NCBI GenBank assembly: GCA_035516255.1
Contig: DATJAL010000046.1
Coordinates: 1 to 52,209, forward strand
Source: Chitinivibrionales bacterium
GTDB lineage: Bacteria; Fibrobacterota; Chitinivibrionia; Chitinivibrionales; FEN-1185
Reading direction: 5' to 3'
Length of the DNA stretch: 52,209 nucleotides
A program made the position numbers and the translations under genes. Below the pieces are notes generated by a model that was not told the origin of the DNA, ran no database searches, and worked only from the letters and a program-made list of their open reading frames with translations. Numbering within the stretch: position 1 is the first letter of the stretch; each line of letters opens with the position of its first letter. Below, piece after piece: positions 4,842 through 52,058 of the stretch.

Positions 4842-4972
4842 GGAGGAGGTATCCCCCTCGCTGTGGCCTCCTCGTCCCGCCAAAAGCGGGACTGCGGAGT
4901 CCTTCGCTACCCCCTCCTGGGTGTGGCCGGGTACCGGTAGCTCCAAGCCCAATCCTTCAGTTGGGCGCGCCC
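4842..4972 (+). repeat. Dispersed repeat family A, copy A1
   Basis: It begins GGAGGAGGTATCCCCCTCGC, has an internal hairpin GTCCCGC-CAAAA-GCGGGAC, then the constant block CTACCCCCTCCTGGGTGTGG and GGCCGGGTACCGG, and ends GTTGGGCGCGCCC. The outer parts match copies at 26470, 38265, 42813 and 46979, while the inside differs. It fills most of the yebC-ruvC gap (4829-5142); nothing else is seen there apart from short GCTGACTGC-like repeats near 5105-5135. Confidence 0.75.
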
Positions 4973-5142
4973 TTGAAGCCGCAGTTGCTTGGATAAAGAA
5001 GTTGGTTCTGATTTCGCTGACCGCTGTCCAGTGACTGCCGAAAACTGTATTTTCGGGCGCACCCACGAGCGGCTGTTGGTACGGTAAAAATAGTTCTTAT
5101 TGATTTGCTAACTGGTGACCGCTGACTGCTGAGGGCTGTTCT

Positions 5143-8064: not shown

Positions 8065-8104
8065 TTTTCTTGCCGCTCGTTTTATTCTGTAATGGTAGTT
8101 TTGC

Positions 8105-8217
8105 GGGGGAAGTCTCCCCCTAGGGTGCGGCTTAGGACGGACCGGCAATGAGGCCGAAGGCCGAGCCTGGAAGGAGGGCCGCCGCGGCAAAGCCGCGGAA
8201 CGCCCAGCTTTTTATTT
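8105..8217 (+). repeat. Truncated family A joined to family B repeat (A6-B1)
   Basis: It starts with the family A palindrome GGGGGAAGTCTCCCCC, identical to the one in copy A5, then a shortened GC-rich segment with GGACGGACCGG. It ends in family B: hairpin GCCGCGGC-AAA-GCCGCGG (8181-8198), the constant GGAACGCCCAG and a T-rich tail. It lies between the convergent acyP and the 8234 gene and could work as a bidirectional terminator. Confidence 0.7.
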
Positions 8218-10992: not shown

Positions 10993-11130
10993 AGAATACC
11001 TTCTTAAATTATAACCTTTTTTATCGAAGATTTACAGGTCAAAGTGGAAAAAACGGATCATCCGCAAACCTATTGTTTTTTATGGATATTTTTTTACGTA
11101 ATGTATTTTAAAATCCACAAAATCTTCCAT

Positions 11131-11171
11131 GCCCCAGTAGCTCAGTTGGATAGAGCACAGGTTTCATAAAC
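11131..11171 (+). repeat. Left attachment repeat: 5' half of tRNA-Arg
   Basis: Identical to the first 41 bases of the intact tRNA-Arg at 17802 except one base in the anticodon loop (A at 11166 instead of C at 17837). The matching stops just after the loop, so the crossover lies in or beside the anticodon loop. What follows (TAATTATCGG) has no tRNA 3' half. Confidence 0.8.
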
Positions 11172-15275: not shown

Positions 15276-17429
15276 ATGAAACATCTTGCAGTACAGCTTG
15301 TTGCAGGGATGGGATTGCTGGTTTTTCTTTCACAAACGGCGAGTGCACAATGGAAACAAACCAACGGGCCGCTGGGTGGGCAAATTATAGCACTTGCGGT
15401 GAGCGGTAACAACATCTTTGCCAGCAGTGTCCCGCAGAATAGCCGTAGTAAATCTGCTTATACTTGGCCCGGCAGTGTTTTCCTCTCCACAGATAACGGT
15501 ACAAGCTGGACTACGGTCAATTCCGGTTTCACGAATACCGATATTCAGGCTTTCGCCGTGAGCGGCGGCAATATCTTTGCTGGGACGTGGGGCGGCGGTG
15601 TTTATCTCTCTAAAAATAACGGTACAAGTTGGACACCGGTCGATTCTGGCCTAACAAATAAGTATGTTATTTCTTTTGCTGTGACCACCAACGCAATTTT
15701 TGCCGGAACTATGGGTGGCGGCGTTTTCCTTTCCACTAATAATGGGACAAGCTGGACGGCGGTCAATTCCGGCATCACAAATGATACGATCTCGTCTCTC
15801 GCGGTGATCGGTGGCACTCTCTTTGCCGGAACCACAAGTGGCATTTTCTTATCAACCAATAACGGTACAAGCTGGACCGCTAGTAATTCCGGCCTCACGG
15901 ATAGTAATGTCACCAGTTTTGCCGTCAGCGGCAGCGACATCTTTGCTGGAACTCATAATGGTGTTTTCCTTTCCACCAATAATGGTACAAGTTGGACTGG
16001 TGTCAGTTCCGGCCTCACCGATGGTGACATAAGTTCTCTTGCGGTAAGCGGCAACAATATTCTTGCCGGAGCTCATAATGGCGTTTCAATTTCCAGCAAC
16101 AATGGTACAAGTTGGACCGCAGTCAATTCCGGCCTCACGAATGGCCAAGTTACTTCGCTTGCGGTTATCGGCAACAATATTTTTGCCGGTACAAACGGTA
16201 GTGGCGTCTTCCTTTCCACAAACAATGGAACAAGCTGGACCGCAGTCAATTCCGGCATTGTGTGCAGCATGCTTTCCACTCTTGCGGTGATCGGCGGTAA
16301 TGTTTTCGCTGGCACTTATCAGGGCGGGATTTTCCTTTCCAGCAACAATGGAACTAGTTGGACTGCCGTTGCTCCTAGCCTTTCGAGTACTGAGGTCAAT
16401 TCTTTTGCAGTGAACGGCAGCAATATCTTTGCTGGGACCAGAGATTCCGGCGTATTCCTCTCCACGAACAATGGTGCAAGCTGGTCCGCCGTCAATTCCG
16501 GCCTTGCGAATTTAAGTGTTTACTCTCTTGCAGTGAGTGGTGGCAACCTCTTTGCCGCAACTCTGGGCGGCGGTGTTTTCCTTTCCAGCAATAATGGCAC
16601 AGGTTGGACTGCGGTGAATTCCGGCCTCACAGATGATTCGGTATTGTCTCTCGCAGTTATCGGCGGTAATCTTTTTGCTGGAACCGCAAATGGTGTCTTT
16701 CTGTCCACTAATAATGGTACAAGCTGGACCGCAGTCAATTCCGGCATCACAAATCAAATTGTTTACTCCCTTGCGGTGAGCGGCAGCAATCTCTTTGCCG
16801 GGATAATGGCGGTTAATGGTGGTAGTAGTGCTGGCGGCGGCATCTTCCTTTCTACTGATAGCGGAACAAGCTGGACTGCGGCTGATTCTGGCTTCACTTA
16901 TGAAGGTTATACTCCGTCTGTCCAGTGTTTTACAGTGAGCGGCAGTACTATCTTTGCCGGGACTCAGGGGCTTGGTGTTTACGTTTCCACCAATAATGGT
17001 ACAAGCTGGACAATGATTGATTCCGGACTAGTGACTATGGGTGAGGATATGATCACTGGTCTTGCGGTGAGTGGCAGTAATATTTTTGCCGGGACTGAAG
17101 GCAATGGAGTATGGAGCAGGCCGCTTTCAGAAATTACGGGGGTAATCAATCGTAACATCCATCAGGCGACGTTAAGGCCATATGCCAGTGGATTCAAAGT
17201 CAACGTCAACAACAAAGGTATTGCCCTGCTGTTGCCGGAAACGATGAATAAGGGTACACTATCCGTTGGATTGTATACCATTGCCGGAAAAAGAATATAC
17301 TCAGCCACACATCTGGCTTATGGAGAAATAGTGAATGTCCCGATCACGGGATTATCAACAGGTACATATCTGATGTCAATACGAGGCAGCAATACTGAGC
17401 TGTCTTCACGGTGTGTGGTGACGAAATGA
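15276..17429 (+). CDS. Secreted 13-repeat Asp-box beta-propeller protein with sorting domain
   Basis: A 717-residue protein with a signal peptide (residues 1-24, ending SQTASAQ) and 13 tandem repeats of about 38-50 residues. The typical unit reads SLAVSGNNIFAGT, GGGVFLSTNNGTSWTAVNSG. The STNNGTSW part is an Asp-box (BNR) motif, so the repeats should form beta-propeller blades like sialidase- or sortilin-type folds; no catalytic residues are apparent, and a binding or surface role is more likely. Repeats are also similar at the DNA level. The last 90 residues (LSVGLYTIAGKRIYSATH, GLSTGTYLMSIRG) form a type IX-like sorting module. AAAGGGAGG precedes the ATG. It is enclosed by 71-base direct repeats within the island. 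Confidence 0.85.
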   Translation: MKHLAVQLVAGMGLLVFLSQTASAQWKQTNGPLGGQIIALAVSGNNIFASSVPQNSRSKSAYTWPGSVFLSTDNGTSWTTVNSGFTNTDIQAFAVSGGNIFAGTWGGGVYLSKNNGTSWTPVDSGLTNKYVISFAVTTNAIFAGTMGGGVFLSTNNGTSWTAVNSGITNDTISSLAVIGGTLFAGTTSGIFLSTNNGTSWTASNSGLTDSNVTSFAVSGSDIFAGTHNGVFLSTNNGTSWTGVSSGLTDGDISSLAVSGNNILAGAHNGVSISSNNGTSWTAVNSGLTNGQVTSLAVIGNNIFAGTNGSGVFLSTNNGTSWTAVNSGIVCSMLSTLAVIGGNVFAGTYQGGIFLSSNNGTSWTAVAPSLSSTEVNSFAVNGSNIFAGTRDSGVFLSTNNGASWSAVNSGLANLSVYSLAVSGGNLFAATLGGGVFLSSNNGTGWTAVNSGLTDDSVLSLAVIGGNLFAGTANGVFLSTNNGTSWTAVNSGITNQIVYSLAVSGSNLFAGIMAVNGGSSAGGGIFLSTDSGTSWTAADSGFTYEGYTPSVQCFTVSGSTIFAGTQGLGVYVSTNNGTSWTMIDSGLVTMGEDMITGLAVSGSNIFAGTEGNGVWSRPLSEITGVINRNIHQATLRPYASGFKVNVNNKGIALLLPETMNKGTLSVGLYTIAGKRIYSATHLAYGEIVNVPITGLSTGTYLMSIRGSNTELSSRCVVTK

Positions 17430-17801: not shown

Positions 17802-17878
17802 GCCCCAGTAGCTCAGTTGGATAGAGCACAGGTTTCCTAAACCTGGGGTCACTGGTTCAACTCCGGTCTGGGGTACCA
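17802..17878 (+). tRNA. tRNA-Arg (anticodon CCT)
   Basis: The 77-base cloverleaf is complete: acceptor GCCCCAG/CTGGGGT (G-U at the first pair), D arm GCTC-AGTTGGATA-GAGC, anticodon arm CAGGT-TTCCTAA-ACCTG, T arm ACTGG-TTCAACT-CCGGT, and encoded CCA. Anticodon CCT reads AGG. It forms the right border of the island, and its 5' half is repeated at 11131. Confidence 0.95.
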
Positions 17879-20511: not shown

Positions 20512-20530
20512 AAAAGGGTAAATAAGATTT

Positions 20531-20688
20531 GCCGCCGAGACACAGAGAGCACAGAGAAAAATAAAATGGAGTTGGAAGTTGAAGGTTGAAAGTTGAAAGC
20601 AACGAAAAGCACAAAACACATTTAACTTTTAACTTCAAACTTCCAAGCTTAAACTGTTTGTTATCTCTGTGTTCGTGCCTGGGCGGCC
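20531..20688. repeat. Nested inverted repeat built from two repeat families
   Basis: The outer arms are CACAGAG-type: GCCGCCGAGACACAGAGAGC at the left and CTCTGTGTTCGTGCCTGGGC at the right. The inner arms are GTTGAAAG-type: 20571-20600 and 20624-20646, with heptads GTTGGAAGTTGAAGGTTGAA against AACTTTTAACTTCAAACTTC. The whole 158 bases can fold as one long hairpin between two convergent genes. Confidence 0.65.
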
Positions 20689-21446: not shown

Positions 21447-21493
21447 GGATCAGGATTCCTGGAATAAGATTTGCGAATTTTAAAAATATACAT

Positions 21494-21560
21494 GGCGCCC
21501 CGCCGCTTCGCGCCGGAGGCCGACCCGACCCGAACTTTGTGAGGGGAGGGGAACGCCAGG
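21494..21560 (+). repeat. Dispersed repeat family B, copy B2
   Basis: GC-rich hairpin-prone stretch (GCGCCCCGCCGCTTCGCGCC), then GGAGGCCGACCCG, GAGGGGAGGGGAACGCCAGG and ATTTTTAATTTTT. It lies between the rhomboid and permease genes. Confidence 0.6.
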
Positions 21561-26469: not shown

Positions 26470-26626
26470 GGGGGAGGTTTCCCCCTGGGGTGCAGCTTCC
26501 GCCGCCTCCTTGACGAAAACAGAAAGAAGGAAGGCGGCGGTGATCTGCACCCACACCCCCTCCGGGGTGGCCCCGGTGTGCCATTGGTTGCAAGATTCAC
26601 ACTGCATTGACAAGGGGCACCCGCGG
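26470..26626 (+). repeat. Dispersed repeat family A, copy A3
   Basis: Opens GGGGGAGGTTTCCCCC, closes GGGGCACCCGCGG. The variable interior forms a hairpin, CCGCCGCCTCCTT against AAGGAAGGCGGCGG, itself flanked by GGTGCAG/CTGCACC. Followed 94 bases later by B3 on the same strand. Confidence 0.75.
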
Positions 26627-26719
26627 AGAACGGTTGTAAAGTAAAAGTAATTTGAGCTTCCGCTTCGCCCCCGATTGGAGAATCAAAATTTTCTTTTGAG
26701 AACTAAATGCTTGCCGACG

Positions 26720-26790
26720 CGTTAGGCCGACCCGTGTTGGGGCACGGAATGCCGCGCCCCAACACGGGGAACGCCCAGACTTATATTTTA
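26720..26790 (+). repeat. Dispersed repeat family B, copy B3
   Basis: GCGTTAGGCCGA, then a perfect 13-base stem (26731-26743 with 26756-26768, CCCGTGTTGGGGC), overlapping the constant GGGGAACGCCCAG and an AT-rich tail. It ends about 40 bases before the rseP start, so its hairpin would be in the rseP leader if transcribed from dxr. Confidence 0.75.
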
Positions 26791-36980: not shown

Positions 36981-38007
36981 TATTTTTTCTCTTTTGCACC
37001 ATTTCCTTGAACTTCCACGGCACCAGGAACCCGAACTCCTTTTCCCCCATGATCCCGTCGCGCATGAACCGCATCACCAGAATCAGAATGAGCGGGTAGA
37101 TCACGAGGCGCCAGCTTTCCAAGTTGACAAGCCGGAGCAGCTCGGGCACCACGGTGAACGTTGCCGCGCCCACGATGCTGCCCGCGATGCTATGCGGCCC
37201 GCCGATGTACAGGAAGATGAGGATGTCGAGCGTCTTGAGGAACCCGAAGTTGTCCGGGTTGATGTACCGGCTCATATGCGCGAACAGGCCGCCGGCGATG
37301 CCGGCGAAGAACGCGCCCAGCACGAACGCCCACACCTTCTGGAACGTGGTGTTCACGCCCATGCTCGCGGCCGCTATTTCGTTGTCGCGCACCGCAATGC
37401 ACGCCCTTCCGTAATGCGAGTAGATGAAATTGCGCATCATCCAGAGCGAGAGAAAGAAAAACGCGCCGATGTAAATCGCTCCGGAGAATGCCGGAATGCC
37501 GGGGATGCCGCGCGGCCCTCCCAGAACGTCGAAGAACCGCAGTCCGGCGCGGATCACCTCGCCGGCCGCGAGCGTCACGATGGCAAGGTAGTCGCCGCGC
37601 AGCCGCAAACTCGGGAACCCGATTAAAAGCCCGAAAACGCCGGCAATTGCGCCGCCGGCAATAACCGCAAAAATAAAAATCAGATGTCCCTCAATCGAGG
37701 AGGTTGACAATGCGCTGCCGAACACCGCTTTGGGCGCCACGGTGGTGATGACCGCCGACGTGTAGGCGCCGATGGCCATGAACCCGGCGTGGCCAAGCGA
37801 GAACTGGCCCGTGAACCCGTTGATGAGCGCGAGCGACACGGTGAGGATGATGTTGATTTCTATGATAAAAAAGATGCGGGAATAATACTGGAACTGGCGG
37901 AGCGGGGAGAGAAGTCCGGCAAGGGATTGGAGAATAATAAATATTCCCAGGACGATAATTAATTTGACTAAATGATTCTTTTTTGATTCCATAATATCAA
38001 TCTGCAT
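36925..38007 (-). CDS. livM: Branched-chain amino acid ABC transporter permease LivM
   Basis: 360 residues, inner-membrane permease with about nine segments. Family blocks: ALINGFTGQFSLGHAGFMAI, GAYTSAVITT, IGFPSLRLRGDYLAIVTLAA, GEVIRAGLRF, GRACIAVRDNEIAAASMGVN and GGPHSIAGSIVGAATFTVVP. The last 20 or so residues (KNKFHLKDAKFAKKKRKWTL) are lysine-rich and come from the repeat that follows the gene, whose TGA is the stop. ATG 38007 is used, but 37992 is possible; neither has a clear ribosome site. A family B repeat ends within 10 bases upstream. Confidence 0.93.
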   Translation of the reverse strand: MQIDIMESKKNHLVKLIIVLGIFIILQSLAGLLSPLRQFQYYSRIFFIIEINIILTVSLALINGFTGQFSLGHAGFMAIGAYTSAVITTVAPKAVFGSALSTSSIEGHLIFIFAVIAGGAIAGVFGLLIGFPSLRLRGDYLAIVTLAAGEVIRAGLRFFDVLGGPRGIPGIPAFSGAIYIGAFFFLSLWMMRNFIYSHYGRACIAVRDNEIAAASMGVNTTFQKVWAFVLGAFFAGIAGGLFAHMSRYINPDNFGFLKTLDILIFLYIGGPHSIAGSIVGAATFTVVPELLRLVNLESWRLVIYPLILILVMRFMRDGIMGEKEFGFLVPWKFKEMVQKRKNKFHLKDAKFAKKKRKWTL

Positions 38008-38010
38008 AAA

Positions 38011-38071
38011 ATAATTCTGAATCAGGGCGTTCCCCTCGCCTTCGTCAAGACTCAGGCTCGGGTCGGCCTCC
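38011..38071 (-). repeat. Dispersed repeat family B, copy B6
   Basis: On the reverse strand: GGAGGCCGACCCGAGCC, a weaker hairpin, then GAGGGGAACGCCC and AT-rich DNA leading directly into livM. The DNA just upstream shares a 22-base block (38089-38110) exactly with 42420-42441. Confidence 0.65.
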
Positions 38072-38264
38072 TTGCTGGCTCGGCTGTTCGCCTCGTTGCC
38101 GGACCGCCCGAGTCGCCTTCGGCGAAGGGTCGGCCGGCAATTCGCTCTGGCTCACCCTCCAGTCCGCCTAACGCGGCGGCGGAGTTTTTTTTCGTGAACA
38201 TCTCCTGTGACGCCGAACGCACACATCTTTTCAAAAATGACATTTTAATCTTAACAACTGCTCT

Positions 38265-38419
38265 GCGCGGGTGCGCCCAACGAATGTTTGAAACTTGCCA
38301 CGGTCGGTACCCGGCCGCACCCAGGAGAGGGGAGTGCCGAGGATCGCCGCCGCCTTACTGCGTTTTTGTCTTATCAGGAAGGCGGCGGAAGCCGAGGCCG
38401 AGGGAGATACCTCTCCCCC
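38265..38419 (-). repeat. Dispersed repeat family A, copy A4
   Basis: On the reverse strand it opens GGGGGAGAGGTATCTCCCTC, has an interior hairpin TTCCGCCGCCTT against AAGGCGGCGG, and ends CTGGGTGCGGCCGGGTACCG followed by GTTGGGCGCACCCGCGC. With B6 it fills the 430-base livH-livM gap (38008-38437). Confidence 0.75.
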
Positions 38420-41136: not shown

Positions 41137-41207
41137 GTTACCAATACTTCACCAGAGTTCCATCACGAATACTGACTCCGAGCTTGCCGTCGCTGCCCGC
41201 CAGAATG

Positions 41208-41256
41208 CGCTAGGCAGGACTGGAGGGCCACGGGGGAACGCCCGGCCTATTTATGA
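41208..41256 (+). repeat. Dispersed repeat family B, copy B5
   Basis: GCGCTAGGCAGGACTGGAGG, then CCACGGGGGAACGCCCGG and CTATTTATGAG. It lies between the trxB stop and the liv promoter; a small hairpin GAGGCAGATTGTGCCTC follows at 41261-41277. Confidence 0.55.
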
Positions 41257-42603: not shown

Positions 42604-42812
42604 ATCACCACACCTTGTAGAATGCAATGACAATGCGCTCGACCGCACCCTCCGGTCCGCACTGGCGCGGAACATCCTCCTCTACTTTACAAACACAAAT
42701 CGACCTTGGGAATGAGTCCAAATCTTCCGTAAATTGTATATCGTCCATGCTTGCAAGGCGGCTTAAAACAGGCGGATGGACAACAAGTACAGAAAATCCG
42801 ACCAACGGGACT

Positions 42813-42967
42813 CCGCGGGTGCGCCCAGCGGATGTATGAATCTTGCCACGGCAGGTACCCGGCCGCACCCAGGAGGGGTAGCGAAGGACCGGGCGCGCTT
42901 TACGGGTACGAATTAGCTTAAATACGGTGGAGCGCGACCGGGTCTGAGCGAGGGGGAGACTTCCCCC
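42813..42967 (-). repeat. Dispersed repeat family A, copy A5
   Basis: On the reverse strand it opens GGGGGAAGTCTCCCCCTCGC, has an interior unlike the other copies (42867-42945), then CGCTACCCCTCCTGGGTGCG, GCCGGGTACCTGCCGTGGCA and ends GCTGGGCGCACCCGCGG. No B copy follows. Confidence 0.75.
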
Positions 42968-46978: not shown

Positions 46979-47107
46979 GGGGGGAGGCTTCCCCCTCGCT
47001 CGAGCCTCCTCGGCTTTCAGACCTGCGGGGTCTCTCGCTACCCCTCCTGTGTGCAGCCCGGGTGCCGCCGGTCGCAAGCTCCACATTTCCGTTGGGCGCA
47101 CCCGCGA
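46979..47107 (+). repeat. Dispersed repeat family A, copy A2
   Basis: Opens GGGGAGGCTTCCCCCTCGCT, interior GAGCCTCCTCGGC and GACCTGCGGGGTC, then CGCTACCCCTCCTGTGTGCA, GCCCGGGTGCCGCCGGTCGC and ends GTTGGGCGCACCCGCG. B4 follows 98 bases later on the same strand; together they fill the gap 46939-47275. Confidence 0.75.
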
Positions 47108-47204
47108 CCTGCAGTTGAAAGAACAACCTTAGACTCTCGCCTCTGCGCAGAAATCCACAGGAAAAATATCCTTTATAATTTTATCATATGTTAATATTGC
47201 GGAA

Positions 47205-47245
47205 GGCAGACCGACCCCGCGAAGCGGGGAAACGCCCAGGTTTTT
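47205..47245 (+). repeat. Dispersed repeat family B, copy B4
   Basis: GGCAGACCGA, hairpin CCCCGC-GAA-GCGGGG (47215-47229), then GAAACGCCCAGG and TTTTTATG. It has one extra A relative to the usual GGGGAACGCCC. Could also terminate the convergent genes on both sides. Confidence 0.7.
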
Positions 47246-49309: not shown

Positions 49310-50293
49310 ATGAAACAGTCATTCCGATATCATTGTTTACCACTGTCAATCATCCTTGTTGCCGTTGCCTCCTTTGCCCAGCACCTCGACTCCTATTCCC
49401 CCTTCTTCGCCGCCTGCTCTCTGTCTTCCGACACCTGCCATTACATCGCGCTGCGCTCGTTCAGGCAAGCGGGCGTCCGCGGGCTCTTTATTGTAAAGCC
49501 CGCCACCCTTGCCACGCAAATCGTGCCTGCCGACAGCGCGTGCTGCGCCCCGGCGGCCCTTGCCGATCTGCGCGGCCTTTTCGCGCAGACGGCGTACGCC
49601 GCTGCTCTTGACAGCTCGGAAAAAAGCGAAAGGCGGGTGCAGGACGCGGGGCTCGTCCGGGGCTCTCCCGGCCGGAAGGGCATCGACCTCACCGCCGACC
49701 TATGCCCGTCCAGGCTGCCGCTCGCCCGGGATTTTTTCACCGGGCTCATCGACCAGTTCCTGCCCACGGAGCGTCCGGTGCCCGTCGCGCTCGCCGTCAC
49801 CGGCGTGTGGATGAACACGCACCAGGACGACCTTGAGTGGCTGGTCGATCTGGGAAAAAAGGGCGATCTTTCCATCACCTGGATCAACCACTCTTACAAT
49901 CACCTGATAAGCGACAGCGTTCCGGTGGAAAAGAATTTTCTTCTCAGGAAAGGCACCAACCTCGAGGCAGAGGTGCTCAAGACCGAGCAGAAAATGATCG
50001 AGTCCGGCATCACGCCGTCGGTGTTTTTCCGTTTTCCCGGCCTCGTGTCGGACAGTCTCGTGTTCGCGAAGGTCACGTCGTTCGGACTCATCCCGGTCGG
50101 GAGCGACGCGTGGCTCGCCAAGAACGAGCTGCCGAAAAACGGCAGCATCGTGCTCGTGCACGCCAACGGCAACGAGCCGTACGGCATCAAGCAATTCTTC
50201 AAGCTCATCCGCCAGGAGCGCGACTCCATCAGCGCGGGGAAATGGATGCTCTATGACCTGCGGGAGAGTGTGGCGGAAAATGAGAAGAAATAG
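49310..50293 (+). CDS. Exported NodB-like polysaccharide deacetylase
   Basis: 327 residues with a signal peptide (LPLSIILVAVASFAQ). The deacetylase fold is suggested by DLTADLCPSR (the Asp of the usual TFDDGP position), INHSYNHLISD (metal-binding His-x3-His), FFRFPGLVSDSLVF (RxPG) and SIVLVHANGNE (catalytic His region). Spacing fits carbohydrate esterase family 4. Compared with classic members the first motif is changed (TADLCPS), so activity is not certain. Residues 20-120 before the domain are Ala-rich and unassigned. Start ATG 49310 or 49292; the former precedes the signal peptide directly. Confidence 0.72.
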   Translation: MKQSFRYHCLPLSIILVAVASFAQHLDSYSPFFAACSLSSDTCHYIALRSFRQAGVRGLFIVKPATLATQIVPADSACCAPAALADLRGLFAQTAYAAALDSSEKSERRVQDAGLVRGSPGRKGIDLTADLCPSRLPLARDFFTGLIDQFLPTERPVPVALAVTGVWMNTHQDDLEWLVDLGKKGDLSITWINHSYNHLISDSVPVEKNFLLRKGTNLEAEVLKTEQKMIESGITPSVFFRFPGLVSDSLVFAKVTSFGLIPVGSDAWLAKNELPKNGSIVLVHANGNEPYGIKQFFKLIRQERDSISAGKWMLYDLRESVAENEKK

Positions 50294-50297
50294 ATGA

Positions 50298-50329
50298 GCC
50301 ACAGAAACACAGAGGACACAGAGAAAAAG
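50298..50329 (+). repeat. CACAGAG-type repeat, left of the 50520 gene
   Basis: GCCACAGAAACACAGAGGAC followed by ACAGAGAAAAA. Nearly identical to 52025-52058, and related to the outer arms of 20531-20688. Confidence 0.65.
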
Positions 50330-50519: not shown

Positions 50520-52019
50520 ATGCTGCCAAAACCTTTTCTTCTTATTACTTTTTCATCAATTTTATTGTCAAGCTATCCCTATGCCCAAACTGTCTCGCTC
50601 TCCGGCACCGTTTTCAACACCGACAACGTGGCGGTCAGGGGAGCCGTCGTTGCATTGCAGAACGGCAAACTGTCGGACACCACGGACGCAAACGGCGTAT
50701 TTTCGATCACCGGCAACGTCGGCGTGGTGTCGGTGCTCCCGAAGGCGGGCGTCGATGAGATATCGGTGTGCGGCGGTTTTGTCAGGTTCTCGTTGGTAAA
50801 TGATGAACAGGTCTTTCTTTCGGTTTTCGACTGCACGGGCAGGATACTCACCTCTCTCAAACAATTCTATAAGGCGGGAAACTATTCGATTGACCTAGGA
50901 AGATATGCCGCGCATGGATTGAAAATCATTCGCGTTGCCATGGGTCAGCCATCGTACAGCTTCAAGATGATTGACATGGAAGGAAGTCCGTCCCGGCCGA
51001 TCACCCAGAATCATGCTCAATATTTGGCTTTGTCAAAAAGGTCGGCGAGCGTGGATTCCCTCAAGGTAAATGCTGTACGCTATTGGCCCTTGTCGCAGGG
51101 AGTCAATTCATACAATCAATCCAATATCAATCTGATCATTGCATCGCTGATCGACACCGGCGTGGGCGCGAGCTTCCACGGCGTGCGGCCTTTCCCGGAT
51201 GACAATCCGTGGAACACGCCGGTTGACAAGGACACCGTGGACCCGCTCTCCGACCGGATCATCGCCGGCATCGGCCTCAACGTGTCGCTGCACCCGGATT
51301 TCTGCGGCCAATATAACGGCGGCGTGTGCGGCATCCCGTACGTGGTGGTGACCGCGAATACGCCGAGGTCAACCGTGACGTTCGATTACGCGGACGAAAG
51401 CGATCCAGGCCCGTACCCCATTCCGGCCAACCCGCCCATTGAAGGCGGGCCGAGCTCAACCGGCGACCGGCACATCCTGATGATCGACCGCGACAGCTGG
51501 ATTCTTTACGAATTGTACTCCGCGTATCCGCCGGGGACCGGCTGGACAGCGGGCTCCGGCGCCATCTTCAAGCTCGATTCCGATTCCCTGCGGCAGGCGG
51601 GCTGGACGTCGGCCGACGCGGCGGGCCTTCCCATTTTTCCCGGCCTCGTGCGCTACGACGAGGTGGTGGAGCAAAAGGCGGTGTTGCACGCGGTGCGGTT
51701 CACGGTTGTCAATTCGCGCCATGCCTATCTTCCGCCGGCCACGCATTACGCAAGCAACAAAACGGCCGACACGCTGCCGCCCATGGGCATGCGGGTGAGG
51801 CTCAAGGCAAGCGTCGACATCTCCGGCTATTCGGCCAACATGCAGGTGATTCTGAAGGCGCTCAAGACCTACGGCATGATCATGGCCGACAACGGGTCCA
51901 ACTGGTACGTTTCCGGCGCGCCCGACAGCAGGTTCGACGACAACGAACTGAACACCCTGAAGCAGATAAAGGGGAGTAATTTCGAGGTGGTGAAGATGAG
52001 GGGGATGGTGACGCAGTAA
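50520..52019 (+). CDS. Secreted protein with internal sorting-like module and a conserved C-terminal domain of unknown function
   Basis: 499 residues. The signal peptide covers 1-23 (LITFSSILLSSYPYAQ). Residues about 25-80 are a carboxypeptidase-regulatory-like domain (VSLSGTVFNTDNVAVRGAVV). Residues about 85-165 (FLSVFDCTGRILTSLKQFY, GRYAAHGLKIIRVAMG) look like the type IX sorting module but are internal. Residues about 220-499 form a domain seen in other phyla without known function, as I recall it: DDNPWNTPVDKDTVDPLSDR, GDRHILMIDRDSWILYELYS, GWTSADAAGLPIFPGLVRYD, LPPMGMRVRLKASVDISGYS, MIMADNGSNWYVSGAPDSRF. AAAGGGGGG precedes ATG 50520. CACAGAG repeats flank the gene on both sides. Confidence 0.75.
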   Translation: MLPKPFLLITFSSILLSSYPYAQTVSLSGTVFNTDNVAVRGAVVALQNGKLSDTTDANGVFSITGNVGVVSVLPKAGVDEISVCGGFVRFSLVNDEQVFLSVFDCTGRILTSLKQFYKAGNYSIDLGRYAAHGLKIIRVAMGQPSYSFKMIDMEGSPSRPITQNHAQYLALSKRSASVDSLKVNAVRYWPLSQGVNSYNQSNINLIIASLIDTGVGASFHGVRPFPDDNPWNTPVDKDTVDPLSDRIIAGIGLNVSLHPDFCGQYNGGVCGIPYVVVTANTPRSTVTFDYADESDPGPYPIPANPPIEGGPSSTGDRHILMIDRDSWILYELYSAYPPGTGWTAGSGAIFKLDSDSLRQAGWTSADAAGLPIFPGLVRYDEVVEQKAVLHAVRFTVVNSRHAYLPPATHYASNKTADTLPPMGMRVRLKASVDISGYSANMQVILKALKTYGMIMADNGSNWYVSGAPDSRFDDNELNTLKQIKGSNFEVVKMRGMVTQ

Positions 52020-52024
52020 AAATT

Positions 52025-52058
52025 GCCACAGAGACACAGAGGACACAGAAAAAAAAAG
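52025..52058 (+). repeat. CACAGAG-type repeat, right of the 50520 gene
   Basis: GCCACAGAGACACAGAGGAC then ACAGAAAAAAAAAG, in the same orientation as 50298-50329, six bases after the stop codon. Confidence 0.65.

Follow-up and report, generated by a model that had tools for sequence, protein, structure and literature searches.

Two structured repeat modules as outward-facing ends of probable small mobile elements in a Chitinivibrionales genome

Described families of small intergenic repeats

Classic MITEs are bounded by one matching pair of terminal inverted repeats and by target duplications. The REP sequences are single hairpins of 20-40 nt bearing a GTAG or CGTC tag (PMC3116915, PMC3733652); they form homo- and hybrid dimers, and some of their families (CGTC) have no dedicated transposase (PMC3733652). 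The pneumococcal BOX elements have the build boxA-boxB(n)-boxC, and their terminal repeats are similar to those of ISSpn2 (PMC3049150).

The window analysed here, a stretch of 52,209 nucleotides, is the entire contig C46 of the 4.28-Mb draft genome of a Chitinivibrionales bacterium (G000), and contains two repeat families, A and B. The closest named relatives of the RseP protein, at 47-48% identity, come from Chitinispirillia and Fibrobacteria MAGs, which places the host within Fibrobacterota and near Chitinispirillia. With bacterial MITEs such as Correia, ERIC and NEMIS they share the property of being short, non-coding, dispersed and present or absent as a block; unlike classic MITEs, the usual A/B unit has two unlike ends, and a target duplication was not detected. 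REPIN and REP dimers (PMC3116915, PMC3733652) are resembled in the inverted pairing of modules, the intergenic position, the remnant-like singlets and the occurrence of both homo- and hybrid dimers, but the A and B ends are wholly different from each other, measure 100-170 nt, comprise several helices each and are unlinked to RAYT. Modular and intergenic character, ordered modules, strong predicted structure, proximity to gene 3' ends and low recent activity recall the BOX elements (PMC3049150), from whose description the present repeats are set apart by the interchangeability of their ends (A-A, B-B) and by the fact that no parental IS was found. More than 100 copies per genome fill the spacers of this lineage and no described family fits them; the open-access repeat literature on Fibrobacter and Chitinispirillum yielded no description of the family.

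Copy number, order and facing of the modules

The A module at 26470 has about 50 matching places in the G000 genome and the B module at 38005-38190 at least 40, while covariance models gave at least 80 A and at least 72 B modules. The repeats are not confined to the window; they amount to well over 100 copies per genome, located between genes. Within the window the A start motif was matched 10 times (palindromic double hits counted) against 0.3 expected, and the features recognised are collected in Table 1.

The A module was found to be abundant in G000 and in its sister species of the same genus (G001), weak in G002 and present in G030, which belongs to another family of the same order. Outside G000 and G001, B gave single weak matches in G005, G028 and G035. 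The exact core GCGTTAGnnnGGACTGGAGG was present in three of 168 genomes of the phylum (G000, G005 and G035), the reversed control pattern in none, and at the G005 and G035 sites the flanking sequence retains, by eye, both the closing helix and the second one. As far as tested, the family is restricted to one order of Fibrobacterota, with two species of the genus carrying it and with relatives, less common, in further families of that order. Spread by viruses was rejected: the core has a lone match on a viral contig (L282), a chance match whose sequence reads as a stretch of a long open frame.

Order and facing were determined in 1.2 Mb of G000 (eight contigs, 28% of the genome) containing 64 merged A and 79 B modules; the contigs had been picked partly for containing matches, so that densities are biased upward, while order and facing are expected to be unbiased. 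The original prediction had deduced from four sites of the window that A always precedes B on the same strand. This was confirmed at all four, and among A/B neighbours less than 600 bp apart in the sample the arrangement A>B> was found 24 times, B>A> never and opposite strands once, A thus preceding B in 24 of 24 close same-strand pairs. The same order is kept in the sister species, and at distances of 2-6 kb it is mixed.

The fixed order holds, but as one instance of a wider rule. The outer side was defined as the GGGGGA start of A and the AACGCCC end of B, and for neighbours less than 600 bp apart both outer sides face outward in 27 of 28 pairs of the sample (binomial p ~1e-15) and in 7 of 7 neighbour pairs of G001, so that the relative orientation is not random; the rule was not seen at 2-20 kb. 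Two neighbouring A modules are without exception A> <A, and two neighbouring B modules within 600 bp of each other <B B>. Two A-A units and one B-B unit occur in the sample, four of eight A loci in G030 (by eye) are A> <A and one is A>B>, and five B-B neighbour pairs closer than 900 bp are present in G001, three of them inside sampled stretches. Either module, A or B, can serve as an end, and a unit consists of any two modules facing outward, A-B being the commonest combination. The A-then-B order is the form that an outward pair takes if B is read on the strand conventionally chosen for it. Neither end of the B-B units in G001 has the other as its closest relative, which indicates that ends combine independently.

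About half of the modules are solitary by the models, some of them with degenerate partners. Copies with A only or B only had been considered derivatives of a composite A-B element. Truncated units do occur; since A-A and B-B units follow the outward rule, however, such copies are not simply halves of that element. One of the two copies in the window taken as B only (21493-21560) is contradicted by an inverted B end, TGGCGCCCCGCCGCTTCGCGCCGG, to its left, and represents a B'-B pair whose interior was lost. The other, near 41207, stands as a B remnant, with the weak exception of the A-start-like remnant close to it on the opposite strand.

Table 1. Modules, remnants and derivatives of the A and B repeats in the window
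Feature	Position	Strand	A start	B tail or body	Basis or remark
A end module, solitary, A2 arm at 4917-4978	4842..4978	+	4842+		
Deletion derivative, A start joined directly onto B tail	8104..8207	+	~8105+ (truncated)	8132-8207+	
Degenerate remnant of a B'-B pair, both B ends facing outward, interior lost	21493..21560	.		21552-21560+	inverted left end at 21493-21516, by eye
A end module comprising hairpin 1 (GGGGGAGGTTTCCCCC) and the long hairpin 2	26470..26562	+	26470+		model R1, 102.8 bits; covariation
B end module, one near-perfect palindrome in place of the interior; ends GGGGAACGCCCAG	26719..26778	+		26719-26778+	
B end module, full length	~38025..38174	-		38174-38023-	at least 40 genomic matches to copy
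A right arm, type A2, hairpin GGGTGCG...CGCACCC	38263..38324	-			
A end module, hairpins 1 and 2	38325..38417	-	38417-		
Short B remnant	41207..41245	+		41207-41245+	14-nt A-start-like remnant 40 nt off, 41287-41273, minus strand
A end module, solitary, A2 arm at 42872-42811	42811..42967	-	42967-		
A end module including A2 arm	46980..47107	+	46980+		
Truncated B end module, partner of A at 46980	47199..47239	+		47199-47239+	

Structure of the end modules

The models of the end modules have 97 and 151 positions. The A module begins with hairpin 1, of the form GGGGGA-n4-TCCCCC, followed by hairpin 2, a long one in which an internal loop (CTT opposite YGAT) is conserved, by CACACCCCCTC and by a third arm of several types, which in G001 is a clean hairpin AGCGGAAACGTGCGCG...CGCACGTTTCCGC preceding AACGC. 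The B module is closed by a helix GCGTT/AACGC or GCGCC/GGCGC and contains a second covarying helix and several inner hairpins; its last hairpin is a different palindrome in many copies, the arms being exchangeable within a closed multi-branched structure. The consensus outer ends are TCTGGn|GGGG on the left and CGCCC|A on the right. They form a weak, short inverted signature (TCTGG.../...CCA) in the A-B units, whereas the A-A and B-B units have full inverted ends.

In both G000 and G001, copies of B often have a long and perfect palindrome as their last hairpin (e.g. C30:47008-47177), and the palindromes GGGGCGGTTCGCGAACCGCCCC and GTAGAGACGC...GCGTCTCTAC recur there, as if palindromes were inserted preferentially at this position. 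A further repeat (CATTTCATTTGGTCTTGGTA...CTTTTGCCAAG) is nested within hairpin 2 of A at three loci (L018, L022 and L026). The arms of type A1 (e.g. C16:135036-134940) contain TTTACA and TATTAT about 17 nt apart and directed towards B (by eye), a possible built-in promoter judging from these motifs. Identity with the attC sites of integrons was rejected, the B module having GTT on the left and AAC on the right, the reverse of attC, and exchanging GTT/AAC freely for GCC/GGC (by eye).

The alignments used for covariation were fitted to the model structures and lean towards them; with this reservation, double changes were found in 35 of 39 pairs among 91 copies of B (437 doubly changed cells, compared to 139 +/- 14 after shuffling and at most 70 after sliding) and in 14 of 25 pairs among 42 copies of A (128 cells, compared to 41 +/- 6 after shuffling). 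The folding energy of single sequences was strong for the A modules (z from -3.6 to -6.7) and weak for the single B module of the window (z -1.1). Stems are replaced en bloc, which suggests that palindromes may be corrected via template switching.

Such strong covariation among dispersed repeats need not denote a functional RNA. Departures from pairing in B were 102 G.T and 66 A.C, and in A 9 and 18, respectively (one invariant column removed), while the acceptor stems of tRNAs in the same sample, taken as control, gave 5 and 0. The near equality of A.C and G.T implies the lack of a strand-specific RNA constraint on individual copies, and fits neutral decay of copies, or selection on the DNA fold, better than maintained RNA genes.

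Gain, placement and spread of the units

The comparison of G000 with G001 comprised 85 adjacent orthologous gene pairs (median protein identity 68%), the genes being called by a simple codon-usage script and not by a standard annotator. Twelve of these pairs contain an element in G000, and at nine of the twelve none was detected in G001. The dxr-rseP gap measures 370 nt in G000 and 37 nt in G001, the gap at C20:16246-16939 692 and 2 nt, and that at C20:14352-14622 269 and -14 nt, respectively; at C46:1182-1365 the reverse case was observed, with the element in G001 only, and some element loci are common to both species. Units are gained or lost whole, and it is this gain or loss, not transposition directly, that the empty sites show.

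The similarity among copies in BLAST comparisons ends sharply at GGGGGA and at AACGCCC. Together with the many copies detected by the profile scans and the empty orthologous sites, these sharp ends bear out the earlier proposal of one composite element. For the B copies of the sample the best identity reaches 95.7% (median 91%); no copies more than about 96% identical were present, and thus there is no sign of a very recent burst. A target-site duplication was not found in 16 units, in which the shared flank length was 5.6 compared to 5.2 in swapped pairs. None of the elements tested lies within a called gene. The outer end is 7-127 nt from the 3' end of the facing gene, with medians of 19 (A, n = 21) and 26 (B, n = 34), and the flanks are 82% A+T, compared to 54% for ordinary spacers, the left being A-rich and the right T-rich.

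We consider it probable, at roughly 0.7, that A and B are the ends of small, non-autonomous intergenic mobile DNA elements, similar to MITEs and REPINs and provided with large folded ends. When single-stranded, the modules fold into several conserved helices; a putative trans-acting enzyme would recognise these folded ends and move or copy the DNA that a pair of outward ends encloses. Solitary modules, like truncated units, would be decayed remnants, as proposed for REP singlets, and insertions would persist chiefly where they are least harmful. As the original prediction had stated, no transposase was found near or between the modules of the window; the genes between distant A and B ends were all ordinary, with no transposase-bearing copy among them.

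The inverted, structured and intergenic module pairs, the remnant singlets and the hybrid dimers of different families might also be those of a true REPIN/REP system, with ends that are REP-type palindromes moved by RAYT, the Y1 tyrosine transposase. A RAYT-like Y1_Tnp gene is indeed present in G000 as a single copy (C16:69806-70405), and a fragment lies where a contig ends. The intact gene, however, lacks A or B flanks, and its own flanking hairpin, GACCTGAAGGTC, is a different one that occurs only about three times in the 1.2 Mb; the size and multi-helix structure of the modules, in which no GTAG or CGTC tag was seen, are not those of REPs. Moreover, Y1_Tnp is found in 32 of 41 relatives, mostly without A or B. 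In view of the lack of linkage of the intact gene and of a phyletic match, RAYT is improbable as the mobiliser, and a true REPIN system is unlikely. Maintenance of many copies by selection, the modules being a functional structured ncRNA or mRNA 3'-end element, would agree with the covariation of both modules, the core shared with other families but absent as the reversed control, the tight placement after stop codons and the promoter-like spacing of TTTACA and TATTAT in the A1 arms. It is opposed by the frequency of A.C mismatches, the presence or absence of elements between sister species and the exchange of interiors for unrelated palindromes, and Rfam gave no match: covariance searches of the window at the gathering threshold and of eight loci with E up to 5 gave nothing near the gathering score over the elements, so that an Rfam or HEARO-type RNA was discarded and the functional reading appears quite improbable. 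The short distance of the outer ends from stop codons and the A-rich left and T-rich right flanks would also suit gene-end regulators, such as bidirectional terminators, distributed for their function and not by mobility; but a terminator-like hairpin with a T-run follows just two of the 68 exits from B and two of the 30 from A, terminator-like signals are seen at 5% of the gene ends facing elements compared to 10% of the others, and elements occur in divergent spacers as well, which leaves this explanation very little probability.

Returning to mobile elements with folded ends, it is tempting to speculate, although we hold it rather doubtful, that they form a lineage-specific class of mobile DNA, whose large multi-helix single-stranded ends would be recognised by shape, would be interchangeable and would be moved by an enzyme outside the well-described mobilisers of MITEs and REPs. 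The interchangeable ends offer an easy way to test what a mobilising enzyme has to recognise, and bear on the open question of how repeats devoid of a transposase, such as the CGTC REPs, spread.

Further repeats of the window are distinct from A and B. The 5' half of tRNA-Arg(CCT) is present as a 46-nt copy (11126-11171, 93% identity) 6.7 kb from the intact gene (17802-17878), the two being arranged as if bordering an integrated segment; the ORFs scanned between them include a MarR-type regulator, an MFS transporter, a BNR-repeat protein and unknowns, and no integrase was seen among them. Ten tandem 123-nt repeats (15428-17110) lie within the ORF 15276-17429, which matches the Sortilin-Vps10/BNR repeat families. 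A distinct small repeat, GCCACAGAGACACAGAGGACACAGAGAAAAA, occurs at 20523-20561, 50290-50328 and 52017-52055.
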